IMG/VR virus record: IMGVR_UViG_3300009545_000068
Coordinates: 1-20,028 of that record
Source of the DNA: a virus
Strand: one strand, 5' to 3'
DNA length: 20,028 nucleotides
The position numbers and the translations under genes were made by a program. The notes under the pieces were generated by a model. It was not told the DNA's origin, made no database searches, and worked only from the letters and a program-made list of their open reading frames with translations. Of this stretch, positions 1 to 20,028 are shown piece by piece (positions within the stretch are counted from its first letter, which is position 1; each line of letters starts with the position of its first letter).

Positions 1-3000
1 CCACTGGGGGCGCCCATGAAGCACTAATTGATTGAAACGCCCACGACGAACTCAAAGACTGACTGGCCCACGACGAACTTATGTTAAAAATTGATGAACT
101 TGCAAAACTTGCAGAACGTGGAACCGGTGCCCATGAAGCACTTAATGACTGACTGGCCCATGAAGCAGATGTTGCTGTGTCTGCACTAGCAACGTATGAT
201 GATGTAATACTATAACTTGATGTTGTAGAAACAAAAGCATATGATGCCGTAATTGCCCATGACGATGTTCCAAATAAACTTGCGGTAATATTTGAAAGTG
301 TAAGTGTACCAATTGCCGGATTGTATTGAAACGTTTTAAAGTTTGATACATACAAAGGTTGACTTCCAGTATTTTGAACAAATGGAACAAAGAATGGTGC
401 ATTAACTAATGTTCCAGTAACACTGGCTGACAATGAATTAATTGCATAACTTCCTGAAACACCCCACACTATACCTGAACCTGTAGCATTAATTAAACGT
501 CCATTTGTAGTTACACCGACTAATGAACCGGATGCTAATGGAATATCGCAAATAGCAAATTCTTTTCTGGCTGTGCCTGTATTAATTGTGCAATACCACT
601 TATCAGTATTGAATTCTACCACACCGGCTTCTGGGGAAGATAGAAGCGTCGATGAATCCCATTTCATCTGACCTCTCGTTGCAGTTCCATCACCACCGGC
701 GATGTGTAATAAAGCAGAAGGAGAATCATTGGTCAAAGCCTGACCAATTTTTACACCGCCGATTGTAATTTTTTGTTTTGTAGTTCCACCGGAACCATAA
801 TCTCCATTTACGGCAAAATAATGTCCATCAGTAGTAACATTTGCATATGAAGCATATACTACATCCTTTAAATTATCTACTCTCCATTTACCACCTAAAG
901 TTGTCCCCATGTATGCGGCAATAGATGCTTGAGCACCAGATAAATTTCTTAATAAAATGTGTGTATTAGCACCTGCTGTATTTGTTGCATCACTTGTATT
1001 GTTTAATATTGAAAAACTGCCTGTCGGTGCCGCCGAAAATAAACTTACACCACTTCCATTTTCATAAATTGAACTTGTGCTTGATAATGACCCCGTTCCA
1101 ATCCAACGAATGTGATATCCATCCGTTCCAGTTGTGAACTGAACGTAGGACGAAGAAACTGCAAAACTTGAACTTAATGATTGTGATGCCCAAGACGATG
1201 ACACAGCAAAAGCAGACACACCGGATGGTGGTGCCCAAGATGCCGATATTGCATTATTTGCCCAAGATGCGGTTCCAACATAAAGACCGCTGCTACTAAC
1301 ATAGGCAACAGTCGTAGATGTTACATCTTTCCACGATTGAATGGCACCTGCATCCAAAGAGTATGGAGCAACATTAATGTAAGGATGGTTAAATGGTAGA
1401 TTGTTTTGCAGGCCATATTTCCATGCCAAATATCCTTCCATTTTTCTTTGTTCTGCATCCGAAAGAACTCTTGTTGTAATTAAAATTTCGGCAATATCAC
1501 CATTGAAAGGAACACCAAAGTTGGGTTCAAAACCAACAAACATATCTCTTAAATCAATCAATGGAGAACCGTTAACAACACCAGAACTTGTAGCAGCATT
1601 GTTAATATAAACCGTTAAAATTGAACTGTTAGCATTGATTGCACCGTTGACTATATGCCATGATTGTGATATTGATGCTAGCGCATTAATATCATAATTG
1701 GTAGTGCTTGATTCATTATACAAAGACCACTCTCTTACACCACTTAATGTTCTTGGGCCGATTTGAAAGTCATTAGAATTGCCTGAATGGCCATTGGCTA
1801 TAATATCTCCTGTAGAACCCACCGCAACGGACGTTGGGTATGTATTAGGTTTAGCAACTACGAACACATTCAATGACGATTGTGTTATTGACGTGCTGCC
1901 TGAAATTGCTGCCAATCTATCATTCACACCATCAAAGTGAACTACGTTATAACCATTAAGTGAAGCAGATACCAAAAATGGTTGATTTCCGGCAGTCGAT
2001 TGTGTAAAGTAATTTCCGTAAGACCCAGTATCAGGCCATATTGCTATTGATGCACTTGTGCTGCCGGTCAAATCATTACCTCTCAACCAAACTCTCGCCG
2101 GAACAGTTAAGTATTGAGGCGTCCACAATATTGATGAGCCTGAATTAAATGCTTCCACTGTAAACGCCGCGTCAATTTGTGATGATGTGGCATTGACACC
2201 AACTGACACTCCAGTATCATAAATTAAACTTGTTGCGGTTAATGAATTACTTAACCATTTTGGAACATAATTGTCTGTTCCTGAAATTCCTAATGGCGGC
2301 GCCCATGAGGCGCTTATAGCATTGAATGAGGTTGATGCTTGTGTAGCATATGACGAACTCAATGATTGTGATGCCCATGATGCTGATAAAGCCGTTGAAT
2401 TATTTTGTGGCGGCGACCATGAAGCACTAATAGCAAAACTTGAACTAATTGATTGGCTTGCCCACGATGCAGAAACCGCGGTTGATGCCTTTAAAGCAAA
2501 GGAGGCGGTTGTAGAGTTAAATGAACTCGACGCAAATGACGATGATAGTGTAAATAATGACGCCGATGCCCAAGATGATGATATTGAAAAATTGCTTGGA
2601 ATTGGCGGTGCCCATGAAGCACTTATTGATTGACTGGCAAAACTTGAACTTACCGACCAAATAGACTGTGATGCCCAAGATGCAGAAACTGCATTTGGAT
2701 TTGCATTGGTAGCATAAGAGGCTGTTATTGCAAAACTTGAACTTAATGATTGTGATGCCCAAGATGCAGAAACTGCATTTGGATTTGCATTGGTAGCATA
2801 TGAAGCAGTGACGGCAAATGATGAAGTAAAAGTAAAACTTGAACTCATTGACTGACTTGCCCACGATGCCGTAGAAGCAAAAATTGACCTAGATGCCCAC
2901 GATGCCGAAGTAGCATACACTGATGAAGATGCAAATGAGCCTGATGTTGACCAAAATGATTCACTCGCCCAGGATGATGATATGGCAGTAGAACTAGCTC

Positions 3001-4678
3001 CTACAGGCGCCCATGATGCAGAAACGGCTTGAAAAGCATTAACGGCACTCGAAGCGGTAAACGAATAAGATGAACTTACAGAATTACTTGAACTTAATGA
3101 TTGTGATGCCCAAGATGATGACACAGAATTTGCTCCAGGTGCCCAAGAAGCACTAATAGCATTTGATGCGGTTCCGTATAATATTCCACTAGAACTTAAA
3201 GCGGCAACTGTATTACCATTGTAATCTTTCCATACCTGAATGTTACCCACGCTTCCAGATGGGATAGGCATTGTTGCTTTGTATGGGTGTGACGACGGCA
3301 AACTTCCTTGTAATCCATATTTCCAAGCCAAATAACCTTCAATATATTGTTGATTTTGATTCGTCATTGATGACGTAAAAATCAAAATTTCAGCAATATC
3401 ACCGTTGAATGGTTGGTTTGATGCGGATTCATAACCGATGTATAAATCTCTCAAATCCAAATTACTTGATAAAGTGGCGGTGCTAGAACCTGATGCAGAA
3501 CCACTCAAGTAAATTGTGTTGGTGCTTGACGCTCCGTTGACAATAACCGTGTTAATATACCACTCGCCGGTTTTTGCATTAAATGGAGTCACAGGACATT
3601 CAGCAAAATAATTTGTAGATTTATCTTCGGTATAAACATCCCAAGTAAATCTTCCCAATCCGCCGTTAAAGAAGTTACCAACTACCATGTCTCTATCATT
3701 ACCAGGATGACTGTTACCAAATAATGTTCCCATGTTAGATGGGGTAACAGAACTTGCATAATTTGCCACTCTTGCAACAACGAATGCTGTCACTGCACTT
3801 GCACTAACAGATGTTGGAGTCAAGACTTTTAATTGGTCATTACTACCATCAAACCTAACACACGGTTGACTGTTCAATACATCAAATACCAATAGAGGTC
3901 TTGCTGAAGGGCTTGAGGCTGTAGCATGATTTTTATATGGACTTGAATCTTGCCATAAATCAATGAAACTTGCCGTTACCAATGAAATAGCATCGGCTTT
4001 GAACCAAAATCTTGAAGGAATGGTTAGTAATGTTGGTGTCCACAAAATCTGTGAACTACTCATTTCTGTGACGGTGAATGTGTCAGTCGCAACCGGATTT
4101 GGTGTATTAAATCCTATGTTGTTTTTTGTAACCCAAATTAAACTGCCGGAAGTAAAGTTATTATTTAACCAAACCGGCACAAATCCATTTGCACCCAATA
4201 ATGTTCCACTTCCACCGCCGCCACCATTTAAAGCGAATGATGCGGTTGTAGCAAAAGTAGAATTAAGAGCGTAACTAGCAGAAACAGGAACAGCAACCCA
4301 ATATGAATTATTCGTGCCGCCTACAAGTCTATATTCTTGTTCGTCGTCAATTACATAGACCGTCAATCCTTCATATCTCGAACCAAGGTCAATGGCATTT
4401 CTGTCAGTAACATTTTGTTTTACTAAACGACTATCAACAGGATAAGGAACGTCCGATATAAAATGTGATGCGCTTATGGCGTAAGACGCAGATGCGCTTG
4501 AAGGAGGGTATTTTGAATAAAATGATGCAGAATCATCTGCATTGATGTATCCGGTATTATCAATGTATAAAATTAAATCCGAACCTGATATGTGGGTTTC
4601 CCCATAATACGTATTTGTGCTGTCACGTTGAAGAATGACAACATCTTTTGGATTTGGATTTGTGTTGATAATGGACAT
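1..4678 (-). CDS. Giant tail-fibre protein with two LamG-like lectin modules, 3' end beyond window
   Basis: I read this frame codon by codon from the ATG at 4678 to the left edge and found no stop, so at least 1559 codons belong to one gene whose C-terminus lies outside the window. An AAGG ribosome-binding site sits 7 nt before the ATG. Two concanavalin/LamG-like modules are visible at about residues 220-465 and 858-1092. Each has an FDG motif, a RDLYIGYE or RDMFVGFE motif, FNGDIAEIL and the block YLAWKYGLQ. Between and after them lie tandem Ser/Ala/Trp repeats of the type SASWASQSLSSS, common in phage fibre shafts. It follows the gp15-like gene in the neck operon. I infer an adhesive virion fibre that binds surface glycans; the lectin ligand is unknown. 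The fibre role is well supported, but its exact place on the tail is not. Confidence 0.85.
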   Translation of the reverse strand, partial: MSIINTNPNPKDVVILQRDSTNTYYGETHISGSDLILYIDNTGYINADDSASFYSKYPPSSASASYAISASHFISDVPYPVDSRLVKQNVTDRNAIDLGSRYEGLTVYVIDDEQEYRLVGGTNNSYWVAVPVSASYALNSTFATTASFALNGGGGGSGTLLGANGFVPVWLNNNFTSGSLIWVTKNNIGFNTPNPVATDTFTVTEMSSSQILWTPTLLTIPSRFWFKADAISLVTASFIDLWQDSSPYKNHATASSPSARPLLVFDVLNSQPCVRFDGSNDQLKVLTPTSVSASAVTAFVVARVANYASSVTPSNMGTLFGNSHPGNDRDMVVGNFFNGGLGRFTWDVYTEDKSTNYFAECPVTPFNAKTGEWYINTVIVNGASSTNTIYLSGSASGSSTATLSSNLDLRDLYIGYESASNQPFNGDIAEILIFTSSMTNQNQQYIEGYLAWKYGLQGSLPSSHPYKATMPIPSGSVGNIQVWKDYNGNTVAALSSSGILYGTASNAISASWAPGANSVSSSWASQSLSSSNSVSSSYSFTASSAVNAFQAVSASWAPVGASSTAISSSWASESFWSTSGSFASSSVYATSASWASRSIFASTASWASQSMSSSFTFTSSFAVTASYATNANPNAVSASWASQSLSSSFAITASYATNANPNAVSASWASQSIWSVSSSFASQSISASWAPPIPSNFSISSSWASASLFTLSSSFASSSFNSTTASFALKASTAVSASWASQSISSSFAISASWSPPQNNSTALSASWASQSLSSSYATQASTSFNAISASWAPPLGISGTDNYVPKWLSNSLTATSLIYDTGVSVGVNATSSQIDAAFTVEAFNSGSSILWTPQYLTVPARVWLRGNDLTGSTSASIAIWPDTGSYGNYFTQSTAGNQPFLVSASLNGYNVVHFDGVNDRLAAISGSTSITQSSLNVFVVAKPNTYPTSVAVGSTGDIIANGHSGNSNDFQIGPRTLSGVREWSLYNESSTTNYDINALASISQSWHIVNGAINANSSILTVYINNAATSSGVVNGSPLIDLRDMFVGFEPNFGVPFNGDIAEILITTRVLSDAEQRKMEGYLAWKYGLQNNLPFNHPYINVAPYSLDAGAIQSWKDVTSTTVAYVSSSGLYVGTASWANNAISASWAPPSGVSAFAVSSSWASQSLSSSFAVSSSYVQFTTGTDGYHIRWIGTGSLSSTSSIYENGSGVSLFSAAPTGSFSILNNTSDATNTAGANTHILLRNLSGAQASIAAYMGTTLGGKWRVDNLKDVVYASYANVTTDGHYFAVNGDYGSGGTTKQKITIGGVKIGQALTNDSPSALLHIAGGDGTATRGQMKWDSSTLLSSPEAGVVEFNTDKWYCTINTGTARKEFAICDIPLASGSLVGVTTNGRLINATGSGIVWGVSGSYAINSLSASVTGTLVNAPFFVPFVQNTGSQPLYVSNFKTFQYNPAIGTLTLSNITASLFGTSSWAITASYAFVSTTSSYSITSSYVASADTATSASWASQSLSASWAPVPRSASFASSSIFNISSSWASQSLSSSWAFQSISASWAPPV
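2616..2642. repeat. 27-bp dispersed repeat, copy 1 (in giant fibre)
   Basis: This 27-base stretch is identical to 19680-19706 in the other fibre gene, about 17 kb away and in the same orientation. It encodes part of the Ser/Ala/Trp repeat. It could serve as a site of homologous exchange between fibre genes. Confidence 0.85.
2667..2800. repeat. Two perfect 50-bp direct repeats, 84-bp period
   Basis: Positions 2667-2716 and 2751-2800 are identical over 50 bp. They lie exactly 84 bp apart, which is 28 codons, so the reading frame of the giant fibre is kept. The protein unit contains SASWASQS and ATNANPNAV. Base-level identity, where other units of the same family have drifted, points to a recent tandem duplication or slippage. 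Confidence 0.9.
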
Positions 4679-6716: not shown

Positions 6717-7214
6717 TTATCTATCTTCAAAATAATCGTCTTCACGGTCTGGTTCGTCGTAATCTGGTTCTTCATTGTCTAATTTTTCTATAATGTCACC
6801 TTCAAGTTTTTCTCGGTTTGTTTCAATGTAATCGTTCACCGCCTTTTTCAAGACGTTAAACTGTTCTTCGGATAAACTTCTAAAATTGTCAATTTCTTTT
6901 GGTTGACCTTGTTCTGGTGTAATAGTCAACAATACAAAATCCCAATCAGTAATGTTTGCCTCGGCGCCTTCTGCTGGGGATGAATTTTCAGGCGGCCCAA
7001 ACATACCTTTCGCTTCTACTCCTGGTTGGGCTTCATATTCAATATTGACAGTCACCATCACGGAGTCTGTATCAGTTGTTAGGCCTGGAATCACAAGAGA
7101 TTCAAATTCAATTTCATGGTCTTCTACTGTTCCAGATGACCACTCGTTGAGTTGTTTTTTATACATTTCTCTCAACACAGTCTTAATTAAAGGTTTTAGT
7201 TGTGATTTTTTCAT
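6717..7214 (-). CDS. Unknown acidic neck-operon protein with capsid-targeting-like N-terminus
   Basis: A 165-residue protein without a recognised domain. It opens with MKKSQLKPLIKTVLREMY, a Lys/Leu amphipathic segment of a kind seen at the start of many phage virion proteins. LRE at residues 14-16 and LNE at 22-24 are possible prohead-protease sites. The body is beta-rich (about residues 30-110), then a helical segment follows. The C-terminus is very acidic, ending in repeated D/E/P/Y residues. AGGA lies 4 nt upstream of the ATG. It sits directly after the gp13-like gene. I infer a virion or head-assembly protein; an internal-head protein is an alternative to a neck protein. Confidence 0.65.
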   Translation of the reverse strand: MKKSQLKPLIKTVLREMYKKQLNEWSSGTVEDHEIEFESLVIPGLTTDTDSVMVTVNIEYEAQPGVEAKGMFGPPENSSPAEGAEANITDWDFVLLTITPEQGQPKEIDNFRSLSEEQFNVLKKAVNDYIETNREKLEGDIIEKLDNEEPDYDEPDREDDYFEDR

Positions 7215-7215
7215 A

Positions 7216-8424
7216 TTATCCTATGTAGATAAATAGTGGAACTCTTTTCAATGTTTCTTGCATTTGTTCCGCTTGTAATGCTTGATTCTCCATCAATTGT
7301 TTTTGACTTGCGGCTTGTAATGTTTCTCTTAATTGGGTAATCAAGTCTGTTTTCTCTTGTTGGGCCTCACTACGGAGTTCGGCACCATCCAAGGTTACTT
7401 CGCCGCCAGGAATTGGAAGCGATTGATATTTTTGACGAATAATGCCCAACATTTCTTTACAAACTGCCAAGAAATATTTACGAATCCATTGTTTACCGAC
7501 TGAATTTATGGTGCTATAAGTTATATTGTTGTATGGAATATTAGCATAATCTGCAACACTTCCTGATGGATTGTTATTGTTTGCCAATGAACCACTTAGT
7601 CTATCATTACGAACCATGTAATTGAAATATACCTTAAATGAGAATGTTGGAATCGGAAACAGTTTCAATTTATTATTTACCAATTCAAATGAATATGCAG
7701 ATTTACGAACCATATCATTAAATTCAATTGCCTGTCCACGAAGCAAATCTTCAAAAATTGGAGTCATTAAAAATTGAACTGCGGGAGAGTAGGCACCAAA
7801 TCCCATTTCATTCATTACGTTTGAATAACTCATACCGGTCATGGAAAATGGGTCGTAAATACGAGCAAATGCAGGTGGAAAATCATGAAATATTCTCATC
7901 ACTTCAATACGATTACAATTTTCAACCTCGTTTGCCCAAAGTTCTTGTAAGTCATAAGTCTGTTGTAATGGTTGAGTTATTACAAATCCTTTTTTCCAAT
8001 CTGCATAACCACCAACGCCTACTTCTCTACCATATCCCTTGCCAATTTCAATTATGTAAGGTAAATTATCAGCGGTTACTGCTTTTCCAGTCAAATTTCC
8101 TAAAGCAGATATACTTTGACCTTGAAATGTCAATAAGTAATTCTGAATGTTCATTTGGTTTACTTGAGCCGCATATTCATTTACGGCTTCTTCAAACGCG
8201 GCATAAAAGTTAACATCCAACATTTCTATGTCAACAATTGGGTATCCCAGTCTGTATGCTGCCCAAATAGCAGATGCTTGTGCATCTGACCTGAAAATTA
8301 AGTCGGAATCGTAAAATCCGTATGGAGTATGTCCTGGAACGGCAGAACCACTTCCTGGCCATCTGACCCTATCTTGGTCAACAAGGGTCGTCGGATTGGT
8401 TATTGGGGTTGTTACATCACTCAT
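7216..8424 (-). CDS. gp13-like neck / head-completion protein
   Basis: A 402-residue protein; T4 gp13 has 309. Residues 54-87, containing RLGYPIVDIEM, match the RLGAPIINVEL start of T4 gp13. Residues 306-350 match its most conserved part: VGKQWIRKYFLAVCKEMLG corresponds to NNRWVKDWATALAKELNG, and PIPGGEVTLDGAEL to MLPGGVTIDGQRL. Both proteins end in a short hydrophobic tail closing in IG or VG. The extra length is an N-terminal extension plus a Gln/Glu-rich helical insert at about residues 353-393. In T4, gp13 joins gp14 to close the DNA-filled head and receive the tail. It is the first gene of the neck operon, and its start faces the plus-strand island across a 67-nt gap. Confidence 0.85.
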   Translation of the reverse strand: MSDVTTPITNPTTLVDQDRVRWPGSGSAVPGHTPYGFYDSDLIFRSDAQASAIWAAYRLGYPIVDIEMLDVNFYAAFEEAVNEYAAQVNQMNIQNYLLTFQGQSISALGNLTGKAVTADNLPYIIEIGKGYGREVGVGGYADWKKGFVITQPLQQTYDLQELWANEVENCNRIEVMRIFHDFPPAFARIYDPFSMTGMSYSNVMNEMGFGAYSPAVQFLMTPIFEDLLRGQAIEFNDMVRKSAYSFELVNNKLKLFPIPTFSFKVYFNYMVRNDRLSGSLANNNNPSGSVADYANIPYNNITYSTINSVGKQWIRKYFLAVCKEMLGIIRQKYQSLPIPGGEVTLDGAELRSEAQQEKTDLITQLRETLQAASQKQLMENQALQAEQMQETLKRVPLFIYIG

Positions 8425-8491: not shown

Positions 8492-9040
8492 ATGATTAAA
8501 CTAGGAAAACTTGTAAAGGAGATTATGGATGCGCCACCGGCAAACAACATTCAACAAGCATCTACGAATGTTTTATCTAGTGATTTTATAAATTACATAA
8601 AGTTTGTTGAGAATGGACAGAAAGTTGGATATGATAAAACTAAAAAGTTATGGTTCCCACACAAATCTGTAGAAGGTGGGTTTCCAACGATAGGTTATGG
8701 TCATAAAATTCAAACCAACCATGAATTAGAAGCATATAAAAAAGGTATTAGTGACGAAGATGTTGAAAAATTGTTAAAATCAGATTTAACCATAGCCAAT
8801 AAACACGTTCATGAATACATCAAAAGTAGATATAAAGTTGATGTAATGTTGACACAAAAACAAAGCGAAATGTTAACTGATTTTGCTTTTAATTTGGGTG
8901 GATTAAAGAAATTTCCAAGATTTGTTGATGCAGTGTTAAGAAACAGATGGGATATTGTAAAAACTGAATATGTTAGAACTGCGGCAGGAAAATCTCTAAA
9001 ACAAAGAAATCAATCATTTTACGATAGATTTTTGAAGTAA
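8492..9040 (+). CDS. T4-type (GH24) lysozyme
   Basis: A 182-residue peptidoglycan muramidase. I chose the ATG at 8492 rather than the upstream in-frame ATG at 8396, which would overlap the divergent gp13-like gene. FVENG (Glu40) corresponds to the catalytic Glu of T4 lysozyme, and TIGYGHK (Thr66) to its TIGIGH. Asp48 may be the second acid, with an insert of about ten residues (HKSVEGG region) before Thr66. Later FNLGG and the FYDRF tail fit the C-terminal lobe. The first 16 residues, MIKLGKLVKEIMDAPP, are not part of the fold and resemble a capsid-targeting peptide, with VKE as an imperfect cleavage site. It could be the endolysin or a virion-packaged lysozyme. No holin is visible next to it. 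Confidence 0.85.
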   Translation: MIKLGKLVKEIMDAPPANNIQQASTNVLSSDFINYIKFVENGQKVGYDKTKKLWFPHKSVEGGFPTIGYGHKIQTNHELEAYKKGISDEDVEKLLKSDLTIANKHVHEYIKSRYKVDVMLTQKQSEMLTDFAFNLGGLKKFPRFVDAVLRNRWDIVKTEYVRTAAGKSLKQRNQSFYDRFLK

Positions 9041-9041
9041 T

Positions 9042-10862
9042 ATGAATGACCCAAAATTTCCATCATTTTTTTGGTTATCGCCACAAGGAGAAATTCAAGA
9101 TATTGGTGCTTTGTTGCATTTACGTCATATAGCAACAAAAGGATTTGAATCATACGATTCTGCGTTTAGAGCACATTGGTTCAGGGGAGTTAAAAATTAT
9201 CAAGGTGTTGTGTATTTAGAAGGTCATAACGATATTTTAAACACAGCACAAAAACAGACAATAGAAGATAGATTTTTAAGTGATGCTTCGGTAACTGTCG
9301 TTAAAATTGAGGGCGATGGTGGAGCACGTAAAACTTTGTTTTCAAAAGAAGATGTTATGGAAGGGCTTGATATTTCAAAGAGGATGGTGTATAATAAGCG
9401 GTTTATGAATGAAATAAAACAGTTAATTGTAGAGGGCGTCCGTGAAAAGGCATTAGAAGACTTTATCAAACAGTCCATTATTGGAACTGAATGGCAAGGA
9501 AAGGTTTTCATTGCTGGTGGATATGTGCGTGATGAATTCATGGGCAAAGACCCAAAGGATTTAGATTTACTTGTTAACGCACCTAATGGTGGAATTGAAT
9601 TTGCCAAGTGGTTGACAAAGAAAGTTGGAGCCTACCGAGGCGGCGAGAATGAGGAAGACCCAGGTTCTAATCCGGTAATCTTCCCAAGATTCGGCACAGC
9701 AAAATTCAATCTTCGTGGCGTAGTTCATCAGGGCATAGATTTGTCCGATATGGATATTGAATCTGTCATGCCTCGCAAAGAACAATACACACAAGGTTCA
9801 AGAAAGCCAACTGTTACTGGTGGTGAATTGAAAGACGATGTAGAACGTCGTGACTTTACGGTGAATAGTCTTTTGAAAGATTTATCATCAGGAGAAATCC
9901 TCGACTTGACCGGATTAGGAAAGGCCGACATCAAGGCGGGCATCGTAAGAACCCCATTGAACCCTGATAAGATTTTCACGGATGACCCGCTTCGTATGCT
10001 TCGTGCAATCAGATTTGCTGTAAAATACCAGTGGAAACTACCAATGTTCATGTTGAGGGGTTTGAAAAAGAATGCCGCACAACTCAAGAACATTTCTCAA
10101 GAAAGAATTCGTGATGAATTGAACAAGATGCTATTGACAGGAACTCCTGACAAAGCAGTTAAAATGTTAAAGGTAACAGGATTACTTCCGTTTGTAATTC
10201 CTGAACTAATTCCTGCAATTAAGATGGTTCAAAATAAACATCACAAAGCCGATGTATTTCAACACACCTTGGATGTATTGAAAAAGACTGAACCTGTATT
10301 GGTTCAACGTCTAATGGCTTTGTTCCATGATATCGGCAAGACAGTCACAAAGACTGTTGAACCTGATACCGGTGGTGTTCATTTCTACGGACATGAATTG
10401 GCCGGAGAAAGAATGGTCGATTCTGTAATGAATCGTCTAAAATACCCAAGAGAATTAGTTGATGCCGTCAAGTTGGGTGTTCGTAATCATATGCGTCTAA
10501 AACAGGCAGGTGATGAAGGTGTTAAGATTAAAGATAAGACTCTGTTGAAATTCCGTAATGAAATGGGAGAACAACTTGAGAACGTGTTAAATCTTATGCA
10601 CGCCGACAACATAGCCCATTCAGAAGCGTCTTCAATGCCAAATCAGATTGCTGGTATTCGTAGAAGACTTGAAACTTTGAAGGATATTCCTACAAAGCCA
10701 AAGATGCCTATTTCTGGATTTGATTTACAACAAATCGGTCTAAAACCAGGCCCTTTATTTAAAGAAATTATGAATGCCGTAGCCGAGGCTTGGTATGATA
10801 ATCCTGGACTGACAAAAGAACAAGCAATGGATATTGCTAAAAGAATTGCTAGGGTAACATAA
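9042..10862 (+). CDS. CCA-adding-type tRNA nucleotidyltransferase with HD domain and N-terminal fusion
   Basis: A 606-residue protein starting one base after the lysozyme stop. Residues about 150-380 are a class II CCA-adding enzyme/poly(A) polymerase core: GGYVRD at 159-164, metal-binding DLD at 173-175, RRDFTVNSL at 269-277, DDPLRMLRAIRFA at 314-326 and ISQERIRDEL at 351-360. Residues about 400-530 are an HD phosphohydrolase domain with QHT (His408), HD at 429-430 and GHE at 450-452; such domains occur in bacterial CCA enzymes and remove 2',3'-cyclic phosphate. Residues 1-110 are an extra module of unknown function. A capsid-targeting-like segment, MNEIKQLIVE, sits at 122-131 between module and core, so the enzyme may once have started at 9405. 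Base composition jumps at this junction. CCA addition is the likely activity; tRNA repair is an inference. Confidence 0.85.
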   Translation: MNDPKFPSFFWLSPQGEIQDIGALLHLRHIATKGFESYDSAFRAHWFRGVKNYQGVVYLEGHNDILNTAQKQTIEDRFLSDASVTVVKIEGDGGARKTLFSKEDVMEGLDISKRMVYNKRFMNEIKQLIVEGVREKALEDFIKQSIIGTEWQGKVFIAGGYVRDEFMGKDPKDLDLLVNAPNGGIEFAKWLTKKVGAYRGGENEEDPGSNPVIFPRFGTAKFNLRGVVHQGIDLSDMDIESVMPRKEQYTQGSRKPTVTGGELKDDVERRDFTVNSLLKDLSSGEILDLTGLGKADIKAGIVRTPLNPDKIFTDDPLRMLRAIRFAVKYQWKLPMFMLRGLKKNAAQLKNISQERIRDELNKMLLTGTPDKAVKMLKVTGLLPFVIPELIPAIKMVQNKHHKADVFQHTLDVLKKTEPVLVQRLMALFHDIGKTVTKTVEPDTGGVHFYGHELAGERMVDSVMNRLKYPRELVDAVKLGVRNHMRLKQAGDEGVKIKDKTLLKFRNEMGEQLENVLNLMHADNIAHSEASSMPNQIAGIRRRLETLKDIPTKPKMPISGFDLQQIGLKPGPLFKEIMNAVAEAWYDNPGLTKEQAMDIAKRIARVT

Positions 10863-10863
10863 C

Positions 10864-12621
10864 ATGATGATTAAACTTAAATCGCTTATATCAGAAGGAC
10901 ATTATCCTGTAGTTGTTGGTATAATAACTATGGATGGAAGGATTATGTCTCAAGAGACTCATAAGACTCACGGCGATTTAAATTTTAAACGTGGTATATG
11001 TTGGAGATATAATCCAAACAAAAAAACAACTTATTGGCACGGTGATGAAAGTGAACATGATGAAACCGATGAAATTAATGTTGATGCACATTTGTATAAA
11101 AAATATGGATATACCGTCGAAAGAAATGTTATATTAGGCGGCAACGATGCGATTGATAATATTGATTTATACAATCAACATCATGACGATGCACATGGTA
11201 TCTATGGATTGAATGAATCATCTAACGGAACGTTGACCATCTATCAAGGAAGAAACGTCTATAATAGAGGGTCAAAATATTTTACAGTAGAAAAGGCGTG
11301 GGCACAACAATTTACTCAATCAGGTCAAGAAAAAGAAATAACAGTTGCTAAAATTGACCCTAAAGTAATTTATGAAGAAAAGCCACTTCCACAGGCCACG
11401 AATGAATTCATGGTAGAAAAAACCGTCGAAGTGGCAAAGGCAAAAAATTTAGGATACAAAGCAATTTGGGTTGATGAAGGAATTCGTGAACCACGTTCTA
11501 TTTTTGTTATGGATATGACGGCTGTAAAAATTGTAAAGCCATCTGTAATTAAAGAGTCGGTTGATGCAACCAAATTAAGAGACGAAACAGAAGATTTTAG
11601 ACAATCTTTACTTAAAAAATATCCACAATTACAAGAACTGTATTTTGGTGTGCAAGTCGGGCAAGTATTACATATCAGTTCAATAAAGGTAAAATTAGAA
11701 GACAGACATCAAGGTGTAGGAAAGAATGTCATACGTGATATCAAAAAATTTGCCGACGACCATGATTTAGTTATTACTCTTGCTCCAGAACCGGAACGTG
11801 GATACAAGGATAAGTTGGATAGATTCTATAAAGATTTAGGATTCATAAATAATCGCGGTAGAAAAAAAGATTATCGTTACGCTTCATTTTTTGGTAGAAC
11901 GATGTATAGAAAACCAAAAATTAATGAAGGTGCTATACTATTACATAAAGAAGATAAAAAAGAAATATACAAATATTTGGATGAAATGGATAAATACAGT
12001 CAATCTATATTTAAACATACCGATAAATTTGGATATGAAAAAAATAGATTTGTGGATAGTGAAGAGGTAATAAATTTACTACAGACAAAATCAGATGAAT
12101 TATCAAAAAAATTCAACTTTAAAATTCAATACTATTTTAAAAATAAAAGTGCCACAAAAGGATATTATGATGAAATTAAAAATGTAATAGGTATAAATCT
12201 ATTTTTACATTCCGATATCGCTATTTTTAGAAATGGCATCCACAGAATATTTAAAATTTCTAATTTAAATTTTAAATCAATTAAACTCACTTTTTTTCAT
12301 GAATTTGTTCATTACATTCAAACGACATTACGAAAAGAAAAGACCGGAAATATTTACACCGTTCCGTCTGATTGGTCTAATAAAGATAAATATATGAAAC
12401 GCCCGTGGGAACAGCAAGCCCATGCTATAGCATATTTGGAAAAATTAAAACAAGATTTAAATACAAAAAATCCAAAATCAATTTTGTTAAAATTGAAAAA
12501 AATTGGACTTCTTAAACAAGATGCTTTGAATAATTTAAAAACTTCTGATTACAAATCTTGGAAGGCTATAATGAAACAAATTATTATGGCTCTTACTGCG
12601 GATATAAAGGAAAAGAAATGA
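10864..12621 (+). CDS. Multidomain protein: ART-like, GNAT acetyltransferase and HEXXH metallopeptidase
   Basis: A 585-residue protein; the ATG at 10864 or 10867 could start it. It begins with a capsid-targeting-like peptide ending ISE|G (residues 9-11). Residues about 15-110 are a module with a WRYNP...YWHGD pattern. Residues about 122-225 resemble ADP-ribosyltransferase-like domains of phage polyvalent proteins: TIYQGR, then KYFTVEKAWAQQF, and a closing GYKAIWVDEGI...IFVMD strand pair. Residues about 235-350 are a GNAT acetyltransferase with the acetyl-CoA loop RHQGVGK at 281-287 and FYKDLGF at 321-327. Residues about 360-585 hold a zincin motif HEFVH at 479-483 with Glu516 in RPWEQQAH as possible third ligand. 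The ART call is the weakest, the GNAT and zincin calls are good. The last part is very AT-rich. Substrates are unknown; host proteins are a reasonable guess. Confidence 0.75.
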   Translation: MMIKLKSLISEGHYPVVVGIITMDGRIMSQETHKTHGDLNFKRGICWRYNPNKKTTYWHGDESEHDETDEINVDAHLYKKYGYTVERNVILGGNDAIDNIDLYNQHHDDAHGIYGLNESSNGTLTIYQGRNVYNRGSKYFTVEKAWAQQFTQSGQEKEITVAKIDPKVIYEEKPLPQATNEFMVEKTVEVAKAKNLGYKAIWVDEGIREPRSIFVMDMTAVKIVKPSVIKESVDATKLRDETEDFRQSLLKKYPQLQELYFGVQVGQVLHISSIKVKLEDRHQGVGKNVIRDIKKFADDHDLVITLAPEPERGYKDKLDRFYKDLGFINNRGRKKDYRYASFFGRTMYRKPKINEGAILLHKEDKKEIYKYLDEMDKYSQSIFKHTDKFGYEKNRFVDSEEVINLLQTKSDELSKKFNFKIQYYFKNKSATKGYYDEIKNVIGINLFLHSDIAIFRNGIHRIFKISNLNFKSIKLTFFHEFVHYIQTTLRKEKTGNIYTVPSDWSNKDKYMKRPWEQQAHAIAYLEKLKQDLNTKNPKSILLKLKKIGLLKQDALNNLKTSDYKSWKAIMKQIIMALTADIKEKK

Positions 12622-13430
12622 TGACTCTAAAAGAAATGTTACTTGAAAGACAAATAGACCAAGCCGAAAGACTTGGATGTTTGATGGCTATGATTGATGA
12701 ATCAGTTGCATCTAAAATTTTAAAATTTGGAAAACAACTCATAAATGAAGAGGATTTATATCATAAGTTTAATGAAAAAGGTGAAGATGAATTTGGCAGA
12801 GAAAAAGAATGTCATGTAACAATACGTTATGGATTTACAAAAGATTTGAATGAATTGGATATTAGACAGTTATTAAAAGGTCGTGATGAATTTTTGGTGG
12901 AAGTGAATGGGTTGGATATTTTTGACACAAATCCAGAATTTGACGTGGTAAAATTTAATGTAAGTTCTCCTATTCTAAATCAGTTAAATGAGTTGTCTGG
13001 AATTTATCCAAATAAATCGGATTTTCCTGATTACCATCCACATCTTACATTGGCATATGTAAAAAAAGGAACGTTCCCACATAAGAAAAAAATACACTTA
13101 GAATTACCAATCAAGTCTGTGTGTTATTCTCCCATAAGTGGAGATAAGTCACATTTTCAATTAGATGAAAGTGATAACATATATAACACAATCAATGATA
13201 AAATTTCAAAATTAGAACAAGAGTGGGATAGACTTGATGCAACAGGAACAGGCGCAGTAAGGCAACATGAGATTGAGAAAGAACTTACTCAGTTAAGATT
13301 TGAAAGAGACATCTACAAAAAAACGGATGATGATGTTGATAATCAAAAAGAAGTTGACCCAGAAAAAATTCCAATTGACCCGACTAAAGCAAAATCTCTA
13401 TTTCAACAAATGAAACAAGTTGTGGCATAA
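12618..13430 (+). CDS. 2H phosphoesterase-like protein (LigT/cyclic-phosphodiesterase fold), first copy
   Basis: A 270-residue protein. The ATG at 12618 overlaps the previous stop as ATGA and has AAGGA 6 nt upstream, which decides the start over an upstream in-frame ATG at 12558. The N-terminus MMTLKEMLLE resembles a capsid-targeting peptide with cleavage at LLE (8-10). Residues about 20-160 carry the two H-x-T motifs of the 2H superfamily: HVTI at 66-69 and HLTL at 142-145, the latter in YHPHLTLAYV. Members hydrolyse 2',3'-cyclic phosphates in RNA ends or, as with the anti-CBASS protein Acb1, cyclic oligonucleotides. The C-terminal 80 residues are a helical, charged extension (about 195-235) and a Pro-containing tail. 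The fold is well supported; the substrate cannot be read from sequence. Confidence 0.75.
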   Translation: MMTLKEMLLERQIDQAERLGCLMAMIDESVASKILKFGKQLINEEDLYHKFNEKGEDEFGREKECHVTIRYGFTKDLNELDIRQLLKGRDEFLVEVNGLDIFDTNPEFDVVKFNVSSPILNQLNELSGIYPNKSDFPDYHPHLTLAYVKKGTFPHKKKIHLELPIKSVCYSPISGDKSHFQLDESDNIYNTINDKISKLEQEWDRLDATGTGAVRQHEIEKELTQLRFERDIYKKTDDDVDNQKEVDPEKIPIDPTKAKSLFQQMKQVVA

Positions 13431-13468: not shown

Positions 13469-14422
13469 ATGAAACTAAAGACTCTGATTCAAATAAACGA
13501 ATGGATTAGTCATGGAATTGCGGTAAATCGCACACCTGACTCCAAACTTCGTGCCACTCCTGGCGGCCAAAATGATGGTGCCAAGGGCTGGAATGAGGGT
13601 GTGGGAGATTGGGATGGTATTATTGAGGGCAAAGACTGGTTTTGTTATGTAGAAGGAAACGACTGGCACAGTAAAATGGCAGGGGCGTCTATTTACATCA
13701 CCGAAGACGACAAACCACATAAGATATCAATTAAGATTAAAACTCATGGATTACGCAAAAATGGCGACACTAATGAGTCATATAAAGAACGTGTTCGTAA
13801 ACATTCTCACAAAGTAGCCCGCTCGTGGATGTCCAAAGCAAAAGAAATCCACAATAATACAGAACTTAATGAGGTTGGAAATCCTATTCCTGTTAGTTGG
13901 AAACACGCCTTCAAAGAGGCATTAAATGACCCAAAAGTTAAAGGATTGGTCGCTGAAACATCGGAGAAGGAATTATCTCCTATTTCAGACCCGGTCAATT
14001 TTACTCCAAGATTAGGAGAATCGGATGTTATGAAACCAAAAAAGATAAGTTATTCGGCAGTTGTTTTAACAGAAGCAGACCAAGAAAAAGTAAAAACAAT
14101 TTTTAAAGACCAAATCCCTGGCGGTTGGACTATATTCGCACATCATATGACAATTTGTATGGGCCCTTTACAAGAAGCCCAAAAGGCTGATATTGGCAAA
14201 AAGGTCACATTAATATGCACAGACCTTGGAAAATCATTGACTAATATTGCTTTGAAAGTAAGTGGATATACTACTACAAATGCTACACCACACATTACAC
14301 TTGCGGTAAATGTAAATGGTGGAGGAAAACCTGTAGATTCAAACAAAATCACAGACTGGACTCCATTATCACAACAAATTTCTCTTGACGGTATTGTAAC
14401 GGAAATTCCGTCCAAAAATTAA
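13469..14422 (+). CDS. 2H phosphoesterase-like protein with long N-terminal module, second copy
   Basis: A 317-residue protein. It begins with MKLKTLIQINEW, a capsid-targeting-like peptide with INE at residues 9-11. Residues about 12-130 form a Gly/Trp/His-rich module I do not recognise. Residues about 190-300 carry two H-x-T motifs, HMTI at 226-229 in AHHMTICMGP and HITL at 275-278 in ATPHITLAV, then GGGKPVDSNKI; this arrangement recalls 2H domains tied to RNA repair. LGE|S (182-184) lies just before the domain and LNE at 133-135 just after the N-terminal module. It is not a close copy of its neighbour, so two distinct 2H proteins stand side by side. The 2H call is good, while its substrate and the N-terminal module are unknown. 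Its TAA stop shares the palindrome TTAA with the stop of the converging gene. Confidence 0.7.
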   Translation: MKLKTLIQINEWISHGIAVNRTPDSKLRATPGGQNDGAKGWNEGVGDWDGIIEGKDWFCYVEGNDWHSKMAGASIYITEDDKPHKISIKIKTHGLRKNGDTNESYKERVRKHSHKVARSWMSKAKEIHNNTELNEVGNPIPVSWKHAFKEALNDPKVKGLVAETSEKELSPISDPVNFTPRLGESDVMKPKKISYSAVVLTEADQEKVKTIFKDQIPGGWTIFAHHMTICMGPLQEAQKADIGKKVTLICTDLGKSLTNIALKVSGYTTTNATPHITLAVNVNGGGKPVDSNKITDWTPLSQQISLDGIVTEIPSKN

Positions 14423-15027
14423 TCACTACCAAAAAATAGTGCGCCACTAGCCGGCATAGTGTAAGTGACATCGAGATAAATATTTAAACTATCAAAATTT
14501 ACACCTTCCGACGTATTATTAGAAACTAAACGAAAATAGATATTTGGATTGACATAATTAAAAGTTCTTCTTGTAATTAAATCGGTTTTTACATCTGCGT
14601 TCATATCAATTACATAAGCAGACACGGTATCTAAATTGTATGTTGTTGTGTGGGCATTTAAATATGCGCTAGATTCGTTGTTATATTGTAAAAGGTCGGT
14701 TTGCATATATGAATTATCATCATTAAGACATTGGATGTTTACGTCAATACCATCATATACTCCTAAATTTGGATTTGCATAAAATGTCTGCATTCTTAAT
14801 GTCGCAGTTTGAATAGTCGCGGTAGCAGGAATAGTATGTATATCAAATCCTATCCATAAATTACATGGTTGACCTGTAGAATCTAATGAACTTGGGTTAA
14901 ATGTTCCTGCAGGGCCACCGGCAGTCCCAACAATAGCACAATAAAATTGTAAATCATCTACGGTAAGTAATGGTTGTGCAGATGTAACACTTCCCCAAAA
15001 AACTCGTTGTAATGTTATTGATGGCAT
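14419..15027 (-). CDS. Beta-rich presumed virion protein, end of fibre operon
   Basis: A 202-residue protein with no signal peptide or catalytic motif. Residues about 57-80, including IGFDIHTIPATATIQTATLRM-like spacing, resemble the pattern of DNRLRE-type carbohydrate-binding beta-sandwiches, where a FD-strand is followed by IP, ATI and AxLRM. The remainder is rich in Thr, Asn, Tyr and Ser, as in tail-fibre tips. AAGGA is 5 nt upstream of the ATG, and the gene overlaps the end of the preceding gene by 13 nt, which argues for coupled translation. I infer a fibre tip, decoration or carbohydrate-binding protein. The family assignment is tentative. Confidence 0.6.
   Translation of the reverse strand: MPSITLQRVFWGSVTSAQPLLTVDDLQFYCAIVGTAGGPAGTFNPSSLDSTGQPCNLWIGFDIHTIPATATIQTATLRMQTFYANPNLGVYDGIDVNIQCLNDDNSYMQTDLLQYNNESSAYLNAHTTTYNLDTVSAYVIDMNADVKTDLITRRTFNYVNPNIYFRLVSNNTSEGVNFDSLNIYLDVTYTMPASGALFFGSD
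14431..14449 (-). terminator. Weak candidate terminator for the minus-strand fibre operon
   Basis: On the minus strand, TAGTG-GCG-CACTA forms a 5-bp hairpin followed directly by six T. It lies inside the last codons of the converging gene, where two neighbouring copies of the same inverted repeat offer alternative pairings (14424-14461). The stem is short and the T-run also encodes two Phe residues, so this is uncertain. Confidence 0.3.
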
Positions 15028-15663: not shown

Positions 15664-17559
15664 TTAAAAATTCAATGAAAAATTTCCATAGTATTTGCTG
15701 TTAATATTGTCATATATTAAACTAATCATATCAACTTTATTATTAGTTGTTGTAAATGTGGGCGCAGTTCCACCACTCCACAATACTGCTGCTGGGAATG
15801 TAACTATTGAACCTGTGCCGGCAGCAGGCTGTTTAACTACTAAAATGTATCTTCCACCCCCAACTGGATTTGAAAGTGTTAAAGTTTGTCCATTTGCAAC
15901 TAAATATTGAACATTGCCAGTATTCCAATCAATACTAGATGTAGTTGTAGTTAATAATGACGCATATTGTTTTGTAAATATTGTATTATCTAAGAACGAT
16001 GAAGTTATTGAATAACTTGAACTTGTAACTGTTCCTACAACGCCGCTAGATGAAATGTATGAAGCGGACTGTGAATTTTTTACAAATGACGCTGTATTAG
16101 CATAACTAGACGTTCCATTAAACTGTGAAGCGGTTATTGCTGAACACGATATTGTGTTGATGACGTTAAGTTGGCCAGTTATATTTGTTTGACCAATTAA
16201 ACGAATAATACCATTTGGTGTACCTGTTCCGGCGGTTATAGTCACCCCTCCACCAGGCCCAAGGGCACTTGTTCCTGCAGTTATTGATATATTGCCTGCT
16301 GCTCCTGTTGAATTATTTGTGGCAGTTAATAGAAGGTTACTTGCAGAAATAGTTCCGTTCATTTGACCAAAACTTCCAATTGACAAAGACTGTGATATTG
16401 GTGAAGTCACACTTTGTAAAATTGAAGAAGTTCCGTAAAATATAGAGGCAGTTGCAACTGAACAAGAAATGTTACCAACTACATTTACAGGGTCACCAAA
16501 AGTAAATGTTGGTGACGTTCCAATGGCATCAAATGTAGTTGAACCATTGCTTGCCACTGTGGTTTTGTAATAATTACTAGAATTATATGCTACTCTCAAT
16601 TGTTCTGTTGTGGCCTGTGTATGAAGTTTTGCCGATGGAGTCGTAGTTCCTAATCCGACGCCTAAATTACCATCCGTTGTTATTTGTGCAGACCAGAAAT
16701 AATATTTGCTTGCTCTAAACTCCATCATCTGATTGGCAGTATTAGCATCATTTACAGATGCAAATGCAATACCATCCGTTAATGTAATATGAGGTTGAAG
16801 TGTAAGATTTTGGTCGGTTCCAACATTTTGATTTAATGCGTAACTTCCACCGCCGAACGTTGGAAATATTTTTCCTGTAAATATACCGTCATATCTTAAA
16901 GCCAAAGCCGACCCGGAAATAAAATCGGACGCACGTAACCCTCCAACAATGTCGATTGGATTTCCATTTCCATTAAATGATAAAATTGGATTGCCTAATA
17001 CATCGGCTAAAAAATGGTCATCGGATAAACTGATTGCTTGAATGCCATTTGCTGAATCCCATAAACCTCCAACCGGAGTTAATTGACTATTGAATGTAGA
17101 AATTCCGTTAAAAACTGTATCCCCTACTGCTGTGACAGTCCCATTTCCAAATTGATATATTAGATTTCCGTATGTGTAAATGTCCAGACCATTATTTGCA
17201 TAATTATATGAATTTAAATCTCCACCATTTCCATTAACACCGAATTGATAAAAGTTTCCATTTATATCATTTATTTGTATAAATTGATAACTACCTGCCG
17301 TAGAAGTAAAATCGGCTACTTGGTTATTTGATGTTTTTAAATGATAAAATCCACTGCCTGTGCAATATAAATCTCCGATGACATTAAATCCATTTGAGGC
17401 ACTAACACAATTTTTTGCAAAACTAGAACTTAATACTGTTCCAATAACTCCACTTGCAGTTACATAGGAGGCGGTTCCAAATAATGATGCAGTGACACCA
17501 TTAGTAGCATTTATACTGCCACTAACAATTAAACCACTTTTTACAATCAATTCATTCAT
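15664..17559 (-). CDS. Tail-fibre protein, paralogue of the broken fibre gene upstream
   Basis: A 631-residue Ser/Thr/Gly/Asn-rich protein with recurrent SASY, TASY and GTSS units and no catalytic motif. Residues about 220-290 hold a block shared with the upstream fibre: TGKIFPTFGGGSYALN, then NVGTDQNLT, DGIAFASVNDANTAN and MEFRASKYYFW. A GTTTPSAKLH segment follows, typical of fibre and intramolecular-chaperone-adjacent regions. The last 90 residues switch to a beta-rich domain (GRYILVVKQPAAGTG, YYGNFSLNF) likely to be the distal tip. It starts 4 nt after the stop of the upstream fibre gene, so the two are co-transcribed. Receptor binding is inferred; the receptor is unknown. Confidence 0.75.
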   Translation of the reverse strand: MNELIVKSGLIVSGSINATNGVTASLFGTASYVTASGVIGTVLSSSFAKNCVSASNGFNVIGDLYCTGSGFYHLKTSNNQVADFTSTAGSYQFIQINDINGNFYQFGVNGNGGDLNSYNYANNGLDIYTYGNLIYQFGNGTVTAVGDTVFNGISTFNSQLTPVGGLWDSANGIQAISLSDDHFLADVLGNPILSFNGNGNPIDIVGGLRASDFISGSALALRYDGIFTGKIFPTFGGGSYALNQNVGTDQNLTLQPHITLTDGIAFASVNDANTANQMMEFRASKYYFWSAQITTDGNLGVGLGTTTPSAKLHTQATTEQLRVAYNSSNYYKTTVASNGSTTFDAIGTSPTFTFGDPVNVVGNISCSVATASIFYGTSSILQSVTSPISQSLSIGSFGQMNGTISASNLLLTATNNSTGAAGNISITAGTSALGPGGGVTITAGTGTPNGIIRLIGQTNITGQLNVINTISCSAITASQFNGTSSYANTASFVKNSQSASYISSSGVVGTVTSSSYSITSSFLDNTIFTKQYASLLTTTTSSIDWNTGNVQYLVANGQTLTLSNPVGGGRYILVVKQPAAGTGSIVTFPAAVLWSGGTAPTFTTTNNKVDMISLIYDNINSKYYGNFSLNF

Positions 17560-17563
17560 AATA

Positions 17564-19255
17564 TTAAATATACTTACCGTTTAAATCTATAGTCCATTGT
17601 AAAGTAGAAGAATTAATTAATACATTAACAAATGATGCACTTAAAGACATTGATAATTGAACTTGTGATGTATTTCCTATATCAGGTGTATCAATTTCTG
17701 AAAATGAAATACTTCCACTATCCCAACATCCAAATAATTTTCCACATCTCATATTACTACCACTTGATACGATATAGTCTAAAAACATGGCTTTATATGA
17801 ACTTGTGTTTAATTGATATGCTACGTAACTTGAAGATATATTACTTATTGAAGAAGTAGATATAAGATTTAATCCATTTAATTTACTAGATGTTACTGCA
17901 TAACTTGCGGTAGTAGCAAATGATGAAGTTCCATAAAAAATTGAAGCAGAAACTACTGAACATGAGAGTGTGCTATTAATAAATGTCTGTCCGTTAATTG
18001 TAGTCGTTCCAATTAATACATTAGATTGACCATTTAACGTATTTGTTCCTGTAGTTCTGTCAAATGATAATGTATTTCCTAATCCATTCCCATCAACATC
18101 GCCGATAGACCAAGCGGAATTTACTTGAGAAATATCTGTTGCTACTTGTAACGCACCAACGCTATTACCAAGTGAACCATTTATATCCATTCCTAATGTT
18201 GGATTTGTTTGATTAATACCAACACATCCTGTGCCGGAGTTAACGATCACTATTGATGCGTAAATAAATCTATCATTAATTGAATCATATCCAGCAATAT
18301 ACGTGTCATTAAAAGTTGAAATTAAACCGACAACTTGTGGATTTAAGAAATCTCCAATACCTACATTAGCATTACCCGAACTATCGCCAAAATATGTTCC
18401 ACCAAAAGAAGAACTTTCAGGCATAATGACAATATTTTTATCAAGAGTAATTGTAGCCGAATCACTTAGTCCAGACAACCAATCATACGCTTTTAATGTT
18501 AAAACATATCTACCATTATCAATTTGGTTTGTTCCGGCTAAAATATTTACATTATTAAATGGAGAACCTATGTTCGAGGTTGTTCCTGATGATGCCTTTA
18601 CATCCACATCATATAATGGAGTGTATGCTGTTCCAGTTCCTACACCCAATTGACCAAAACGGTAAACTAAAGAAGAACCTGTGAGTTGTCCCACATTGCT
18701 TTTATATTGAACTGAAAATGGATTGCCTATAGCAGGAATATAAGATGCTGATACGGCATTTAAAACATACGAGGCAGTCACCGCATTTTTAACATAGCTA
18801 GAAGTAACGGAAAAACTAGAACTTACAGAATAACTAGAACTTGTCACAGTTCCAACAATTCCACTTGATGAAATGTATGAAGCAGATAATGACTGACTGG
18901 CCCATGAAGCACTCACAGCATTTTTTACATAACTTGCCGTATTTGCCAAAGATGCTGTGTATGGAGAACCATTTTGTAAATAGTTTCCAGTTATATCCAA
19001 ATCGCCTATTACAAGTGCGGGAGCACCATTACCAGTAAATGTGAATATAGGAATTCCAGTTTGACTGTATAGAATGTGGTCATCTGCAACATCAATTGCT
19101 ATAGTAGAATTAGCATTGTCCCAAATTCCACCAATAGGTCGGATGATGTCGTTAAATACTACAGCACCATTAAAATCAGCAGTATTAGCAGTAATATTTC
19201 CGTCAATATTTACCGGATTGGCCCAAAAACTATATTGACTTGCACGAAACTCCAT
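17564..19255 (-). CDS. Distal part of a tail fibre, downstream of an in-frame stop
   Basis: The first ATG gives 563 residues, but the frame is open back to the TAA at 19325 and the residues before the ATG (PQITLADGIAFASVND...) match the paralogue. The ATG at 19255 falls in the middle of a conserved block and has no Shine-Dalgarno. I therefore read this as the second half of one interrupted gene of more than 770 codons. The N-terminal part shares MEFRAS.Y.FW and ISSSG.VGTVTSSSYS with the fibre at 15664-17559. The C-terminal 80 residues, with FLDYIVSSGSNMRCG, FSEIDTPDIGNTS and a final WTIDLNGKYI, match a common fibre C-terminal domain of the form FFDY.V..G.N.RAG...DIG.TS.V. The function of the whole is host adhesion by inference. 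Confidence 0.65.
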   Translation of the reverse strand: MEFRASQYSFWANPVNIDGNITANTADFNGAVVFNDIIRPIGGIWDNANSTIAIDVADDHILYSQTGIPIFTFTGNGAPALVIGDLDITGNYLQNGSPYTASLANTASYVKNAVSASWASQSLSASYISSSGIVGTVTSSSYSVSSSFSVTSSYVKNAVTASYVLNAVSASYIPAIGNPFSVQYKSNVGQLTGSSLVYRFGQLGVGTGTAYTPLYDVDVKASSGTTSNIGSPFNNVNILAGTNQIDNGRYVLTLKAYDWLSGLSDSATITLDKNIVIMPESSSFGGTYFGDSSGNANVGIGDFLNPQVVGLISTFNDTYIAGYDSINDRFIYASIVIVNSGTGCVGINQTNPTLGMDINGSLGNSVGALQVATDISQVNSAWSIGDVDGNGLGNTLSFDRTTGTNTLNGQSNVLIGTTTINGQTFINSTLSCSVVSASIFYGTSSFATTASYAVTSSKLNGLNLISTSSISNISSSYVAYQLNTSSYKAMFLDYIVSSGSNMRCGKLFGCWDSGSISFSEIDTPDIGNTSQVQLSMSLSASFVNVLINSSTLQWTIDLNGKYI

Positions 19256-19324
19256 CGAAAGATTTGCCGTATTTGCGTCATTTACAGAAGCAAAAGCAAT
19301 ACCATCAGCAAGAGTGATTTGTGG

Positions 19325-19327
19325 TTA
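19325..19327 (-). other. In-frame TAA stop inside the tail-fibre gene
   Basis: The frame reads GTT TAA CCA CAA, then continues open for 586 codons. The paralogue has a Gln codon (CAA, in LQPH) at this position, so a single C-to-T change from CAA explains the stop. Other genes here (for example those ending at 9040, 10862 and 13430) end in TAA, so this is not a recoded genome. Mutation, sequencing error or programmed read-through are all possible. Confidence 0.8.
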
Positions 19328-20028
19328 AACTGTTAGATTCTTATCAGTTCCAACATTTGTATTTAACGCATATGAACCACCGCCAAATTTAGGAAAAATT
19401 TTACCTGTGAAAGTATTATCATATTTCAATCCTATTGCCGAACTCGTTAAACTACTTGTTAAGTTAAGAGCAAATCCATTTCCATTAATATATGAAGTTG
19501 ATAATGATGCGGATGCCCATGAAGCAGACACGGTTGCTACAAATGGCGACCAGGATGCAGAAATTGAACGTGAAGCAAAACTTGATGATGTTGAAAATAA
19601 TGATGAGTTTGCCCAACTCGATGTAATTTGATATGTAGATGCAGTTACTAAAGTTGTTGCCCCTTGATTTGGACTCCACGAAGCACTTATTGATTGACTG
19701 GCAAAAGACGAACTCACTGACCAAATTGATTGACTTGCCCACGACGCACTTGGAACTGTTGTTATGATTGTCTGTGGTGCATATGACGCGGATAATGATT
19801 TATTAGAATATGATGCGGTTCCCTCTAAAGAACCAGTCATTTTTAAAGTTGTATTCCAATCCAATATAACATCTTCATTATTATTAAGTAATTGTCTATC
19901 CATCCAATTCGCACATTTTATATCGTCTTGTCCAGTTAGTAATCCGGTTGACCAATTTAGTGTATCAACTACATTACTTGTTAATGCTTTCGTAGATGGA
20001 TTAATTACTTCATCTTCATCTTTATTTC
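19325..20028 (-). CDS. Proximal part of a tail fibre, 5' end beyond window, ends at in-frame TAA
   Basis: The ATG at 19903 is not necessarily the start, because the frame stays open to the right edge (NKDEDEVINPSTKAL...), so the gene begins outside the window. The segment CANWMDRQLLNNNEDVILDW is the usual lead-in of phage fibre shafts. It is followed by SASWASQS-type repeats like those of the giant fibre. The piece ends in YDNTFTGKIFPKFGGGSYALN and NVGTDKNLTV, then TAA, exactly where the paralogue continues with LQPHITL. It would give a truncated fibre lacking the distal tip unless the stop is read through. A second copy of a 27-bp repeat lies at 19680-19706. Confidence 0.7.
   Translation of the reverse strand, partial: NKDEDEVINPSTKALTSNVVDTLNWSTGLLTGQDDIKCANWMDRQLLNNNEDVILDWNTTLKMTGSLEGTASYSNKSLSASYAPQTIITTVPSASWASQSIWSVSSSFASQSISASWSPNQGATTLVTASTYQITSSWANSSLFSTSSSFASRSISASWSPFVATVSASWASASLSTSYINGNGFALNLTSSLTSSAIGLKYDNTFTGKIFPKFGGGSYALNTNVGTDKNLTV
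19680..19706. repeat. 27-bp dispersed repeat, copy 2 (in broken fibre gene)
   Basis: The sequence is identical over 27 bases to 2616-2642 in the giant fibre. The flanks remain similar for about 20 more bases, which suggests shared ancestry or gene conversion between the fibre shafts. Confidence 0.85.

Follow-up and report, generated by a model that had tools for sequence, protein, structure and literature searches.

A tail fibre-type gene interrupted by a single in-frame TAA in a metagenomic phage contig

The interrupted fibre frame

The window analysed here, the whole stretch of 20,028 bases, is a virus record with two fibre-type genes on the minus strand at its end, located at 15664-17559 and 17564-20026. 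The former (15664..17559, minus strand) is intact, codes for 631 amino acids and has a weak match to the PHROG tail fiber family phrog_9017 (E 0.0027). In the latter, translation of the minus-strand frame reveals a single internal stop, the TAA at 19325-19327 (minus strand), ahead of the terminal stop at 17564-17566. The N-proximal part (19328..20026, minus strand) comprises 233 open codons with shaft repeats of the SAS type and extends up to the contig end, its true start being outside the window or uncertain. The downstream part (17564..19324, minus strand) adds 586 more open codons and the terminal TAA and displays no decay; when read as an ORF of its own it begins with the ATG at 19255 and is open for 563 amino acids. 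The remaining two frames of this 586-codon stretch contain 49 and 59 stops, and the open frame is therefore not a product of chance. The interrupting TAA is situated approximately 700 bases from the contig end, inside the repeat-rich gene.

The original prediction described a tail fibre split by one TAA with the frame open on either side. This description agrees with what is found at the locus, namely a fibre-type gene, a single in-frame TAA preceded by 233 and followed by 586 open codons, and a paralogue that can be aligned across the stop. With open codons before and after the TAA and a paralogous module that aligns through it, the region 17564-20026 was formerly one gene, which is now split.

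In viral contigs, searches with the downstream ORF, the neighbouring fibre gene and the adjoining 215-aa gene yielded no close relatives, and no strain-level relative of the window was found. Viral contigs scanned for a DNA pattern spanning the site, in which any codon was allowed at the stop, contained 0 matches, in a scan that may omit records very near the window. The downstream ORF is without a Pfam match, and the neighbouring fibre gene matched two phage records only along a stretch near the C-terminus that makes up 15% of its length. Where related records matched the upstream part, the matches were judged by eye to be due to SAS repeats and were set aside as uninformative on the stop site.

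The paralogous module and the C-terminal domain

The stop is located within an 86-codon module (19199..19456, minus strand) delineated by alignment, and the intact neighbouring fibre gene holds a paralogous module (16639..16926, minus strand). When the two are aligned through the stop they share 69% amino-acid identity without a gap at the site, and a Gln codon (CAA) stands opposite the TAA, which is the residue that had been expected from the paralogue. At the DNA level the paralogous copy is 74% alike. The likeness is about equal on both sides of the stop: in the 43 codons before it 14 are the same, 15 synonymous and 14 non-synonymous, and in the 42 codons after it the respective numbers are 15, 15 and 12. 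Describing this Gln as conserved goes too far, as a single paralogue is its witness and two remote relatives, L007 and L008, read R and F near the stop position (aligned by eye, in a part with a length difference). These two loci were retrieved in a module profile search of viral contigs. The same kind of search in GTDB genomes gave no match, nor did a module search of phage records, and the module was absent from the 50 records of related phages searched.

The part beyond the stop ends with a 108-aa domain (17567..17890, minus strand) that is common to the fibre genes of related phages. Using tblastn, 42 pieces were reduced to 11 distinct C-termini, among which L116 is cut at the 3' end of its locus and appears to repeat L090; in 11 of the 11 the domain is uninterrupted and in frame with its N-terminus. 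The alignment of the domain consists of 11 sequences, that of the window and those of 10 relatives. No PHROG match was obtained for any of the 11 aligned domains, and no sequence match to the C-terminal domain was found in the PDB.

In the structural model (mean pLDDT 81.5, pTM 0.72) the domain is predicted to be all beta. Comparison of the model with known structures gave T4 gp9 (1qex_A; Z 12.5, rmsd 2.8, 107 aligned residues), a chain of the Klebsiella phage KP1 baseplate entry (9f4a_LA; Z 10.4, rmsd 2.9, 106 aligned), the tailspikes 6e1r_A (Z 10.2, rmsd 2.2, 97 aligned) and 6c72_A (Z 8.7, rmsd 3.0, 99 aligned) and the tail fibre 7xy1_A (Z 8.5, rmsd 2.8, 96 aligned). Foldseek matches among predicted viral structures reached E-values down to 5.8e-10. 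The cut-off domain thus resembles, in its predicted fold, T4 gp9 and the C-terminal domains of tailspikes, unlike its sequence, which is only 19% identical to 1qex_A and 12% to 6e1r_A. A shared fold, itself predicted, does not establish receptor binding. It had been proposed that the stop severs the shaft from a conserved receptor-type C-terminal domain; the relatives do keep the domain in frame with the rest, and its predicted fold makes calling it a tip fair, while the term receptor-type is unsupported by the fold alone.

Origin of the in-frame TAA

Long frames with one stop between them were sought in the window and in related loci. The only other pair in the window, at 6719, represents two ordinary adjoining genes. 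When the scan was extended to 212 sequences totalling 2.50 Mb, in which some records overlap or are repeated, it gave 100 distinct pairs in which each side is open for at least 150 codons; 13 of these have their first ATG at least 15 codons after the stop. Judged by eye, five of these 13 are the window itself, L079, L072, L130 and L143, while the remaining eight (L064 twice, L075, L077, L084, L199, L206 and L207) seem to be read antisense or in a wrong frame. In L130 a possible start codon directly follows the stop, so that two genes are probable; a homologue of its second part is found in L028. In L072 a coiled-coil-rich gene is interrupted by an in-frame TAA at 8518, with 284 open codons on one side and 628 on the other.

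In L079, which belongs to a related phage, the collagen-like fibre gene has a TAA at 13189, where CAA is present in 18 of the 18 sibling contigs covering the site. This TAA is approximately 1 kb from the end of its contig, and a second private change is located 8 bases away. Similarly to the gene in the window, that of L079 is repeat-rich and open on both sides of a TAA that replaces a Gln codon; the difference is that siblings reveal the L079 change as private to one contig, whereas no sibling of the window was found. Throughout 198,476 aligned coding bases of the L079 siblings this is the one nonsense change, private to 1 of 19 contigs, and two frame-breaking differences were seen in two contigs, both in the same fibre gene. 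Being one event among non-independent contigs, the L079 control gives a rough rate only, and suggests that a lone nonsense change per 20-kb window is uncommon, though unremarkable once a large number of windows is examined. In fibre genes, lone stops arise as private variants or errors, and, with 1 of the 19 sibling contigs carrying a Gln-to-TAA change of its own, they need no mechanism.

It was originally suggested that read-through of the TAA yields a mix of short and long fibres. Partial or complete reading of the TAA as an amino acid, by read-through, a suppressor tRNA or a code change, would be in line with the frame being open on both sides. In addition, a study of code-15 phages (PMC9523058) describes TAG read as Gln, a tail fibre broken into six proteins by standard gene calling, and peptide proof of the recoding. 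The window resembles these phages in that a stop breaks into a fibre frame at a place where one would expect Gln; it differs in that one TAA is involved instead of TAG with peptide proof, and in that TAA is the terminator of the genome. After the two halves of the split gene had been set aside from the 15 frames checked, TAA was found to terminate 12 of the 13 other genes and TGA the remaining one, and 10 of the 13 have a second in-frame stop within 18 codons after the terminator. A recoded stop would interrupt many genes and not serve as a terminator, whereas here there is one interruption by the usual terminator. No tRNA gene was detected within the 20,028-base window and a single one, tRNA-Ser, in 37 loci of relatives; no suppressor tRNA was seen in the window, a fragment of its genome, or in those loci. 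In bacteria, UAA is in general the least leaky of the stops. RNA folding of three stretches around the stop was no better than that of shuffled sequences (z +0.07, -0.51 and -0.24), although not all known signals are structural, and no Rfam family reached the threshold in the window. With an ordinary terminator, no tRNA gene in the window and no fold beyond chance, decoding of the TAA finds no support and is considered very improbable. A leaky stop or a standing polymorphism at this codon, with both tipless and tipped fibres made by the phage population, also seems hardly probable; were it true, adsorption or host choice would vary among virions or lineages.

A real split into two genes, one for a short shaft protein and the other for a protein initiated at the ATG 19255, would be compatible with the open 563-aa ORF and with the several tandem fibre genes, some of them short, of related phages. 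However, this ATG, the first one past the stop and 23 codons on, encodes an internal Met common to the paralogous module, and the codons between the stop and the ATG are still paralogue-like. The 15 bases preceding it have an A+T content of 53%, lower than at all 12 other starts (mean 76%, range 60-93%), and by eye there is no N-terminal sequence resembling the starts of the relatives' fibre genes. Nothing in these sequence features appears to favour a re-start downstream of the stop, and we consider such a split very unlikely.

An error of consensus or assembly, the phage gene being intact and the TAA present only in the contig, is a serious possibility that falls somewhat short of even chances. 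The contig end is about 700 bases away within the same repeat-rich gene, the private TAA of L079 is likewise near a contig end with a second private change beside it, and the downstream frame is undecayed. On the other hand, the window is not full of errors, as the only other pair found by the scan is formed by ordinary neighbouring genes, and a mix-up with the paralogous copy would not create a stop, because that copy has Gln at the place and only 74% DNA likeness.

About an even chance is given to the reading that one fibre gene of a large T4-related phage has recently been hit by a single nonsense change, with no switch or recoding and with a fibre that is probably dispensable. According to this preferred explanation, the sampled phage would have acquired one recent nonsense change, translation would halt at 19325 to leave a shaft without the C-terminal domain, and the remainder after the stop would be untranslated, its decay not yet begun. 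With an intact fibre-type gene beside it that carries a copy of the same module, this fibre is probably redundant or dispensable. The sequence shows one ancestral frame with one stop, and TAA as the usual terminator; we infer that the allele is real and of recent origin, that the phage can do without the fibre and that no protein is made from the downstream part. Losses of tail fibre genes are known from phage populations, as described for lambda stf (PMC2762979), and our analysis therefore leans slightly towards a real allele over a consensus error. The error is kept close behind on account of the near contig end and the clean downstream frame.

The laboratory strain of phage lambda has its stf gene broken by one frameshift. 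This side tail fibre gene, which was originally annotated as orf401 and orf314, was mutated in 19 of 21 independent low-adsorption mutants, with frameshifts in 15 (PMC2762979). The interrupted gene may be likened to stf, a side-fibre gene in which loss alleles arise readily and lower adsorption in lambda (PMC2762979). It is unlike stf in that the lambda alleles were demonstrated experimentally and are mostly frameshifts, many of them in homonucleotide runs, whereas here one TAA occurs in a metagenomic contig. A real allele would add one more disposable fibre gene of the lambda stf type, this time in uncultured large phages. The case has little significance in itself, and its by-product is a rough base rate of lone nonsense changes in metagenomic fibre genes; a single in-frame stop should accordingly be taken for recoding only when reads support it.

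Other genes of the window

The neck-type gene at 7216-8424 shares 47% identity with its counterpart in Microcystis phage Mel-JY01 and 37% with those in Flavobacterium phages of the immuto group, and has a PHROG head-tail adaptor match. A tRNA nucleotidyltransferase with an HD domain is encoded at 9042-10862 (plus strand), yet the window has no tRNA gene. The following 585-aa ORF (10864-12621, plus strand) has parts that match separate stretches in different relatives, as if small genes had been fused. The gene at 12558-13430 (plus strand), homologues of which are present in related phages, has a match to the Pfam family Acb1, an anti-CBASS protein (30.2 bits, cut-off 27). Next to it, a 317-aa gene (13469-14422, plus strand) is conserved in relatives (78% in L136) and has only a sub-threshold Pfam match; its HHMTI and HITL motifs are, by eye, reminiscent of 2H phosphoesterases. 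For the 202-aa gene at 14419-15027, Pfam matches to coronavirus S1 and DUF3531 were below the cut-off and were taken as chance. In a very long SAS-repeat fibre gene (2-4678, minus strand), a stretch that ends in EGYLAWKYGLQ occurs twice; relatives of this gene are 64% identical over 1438 residues.
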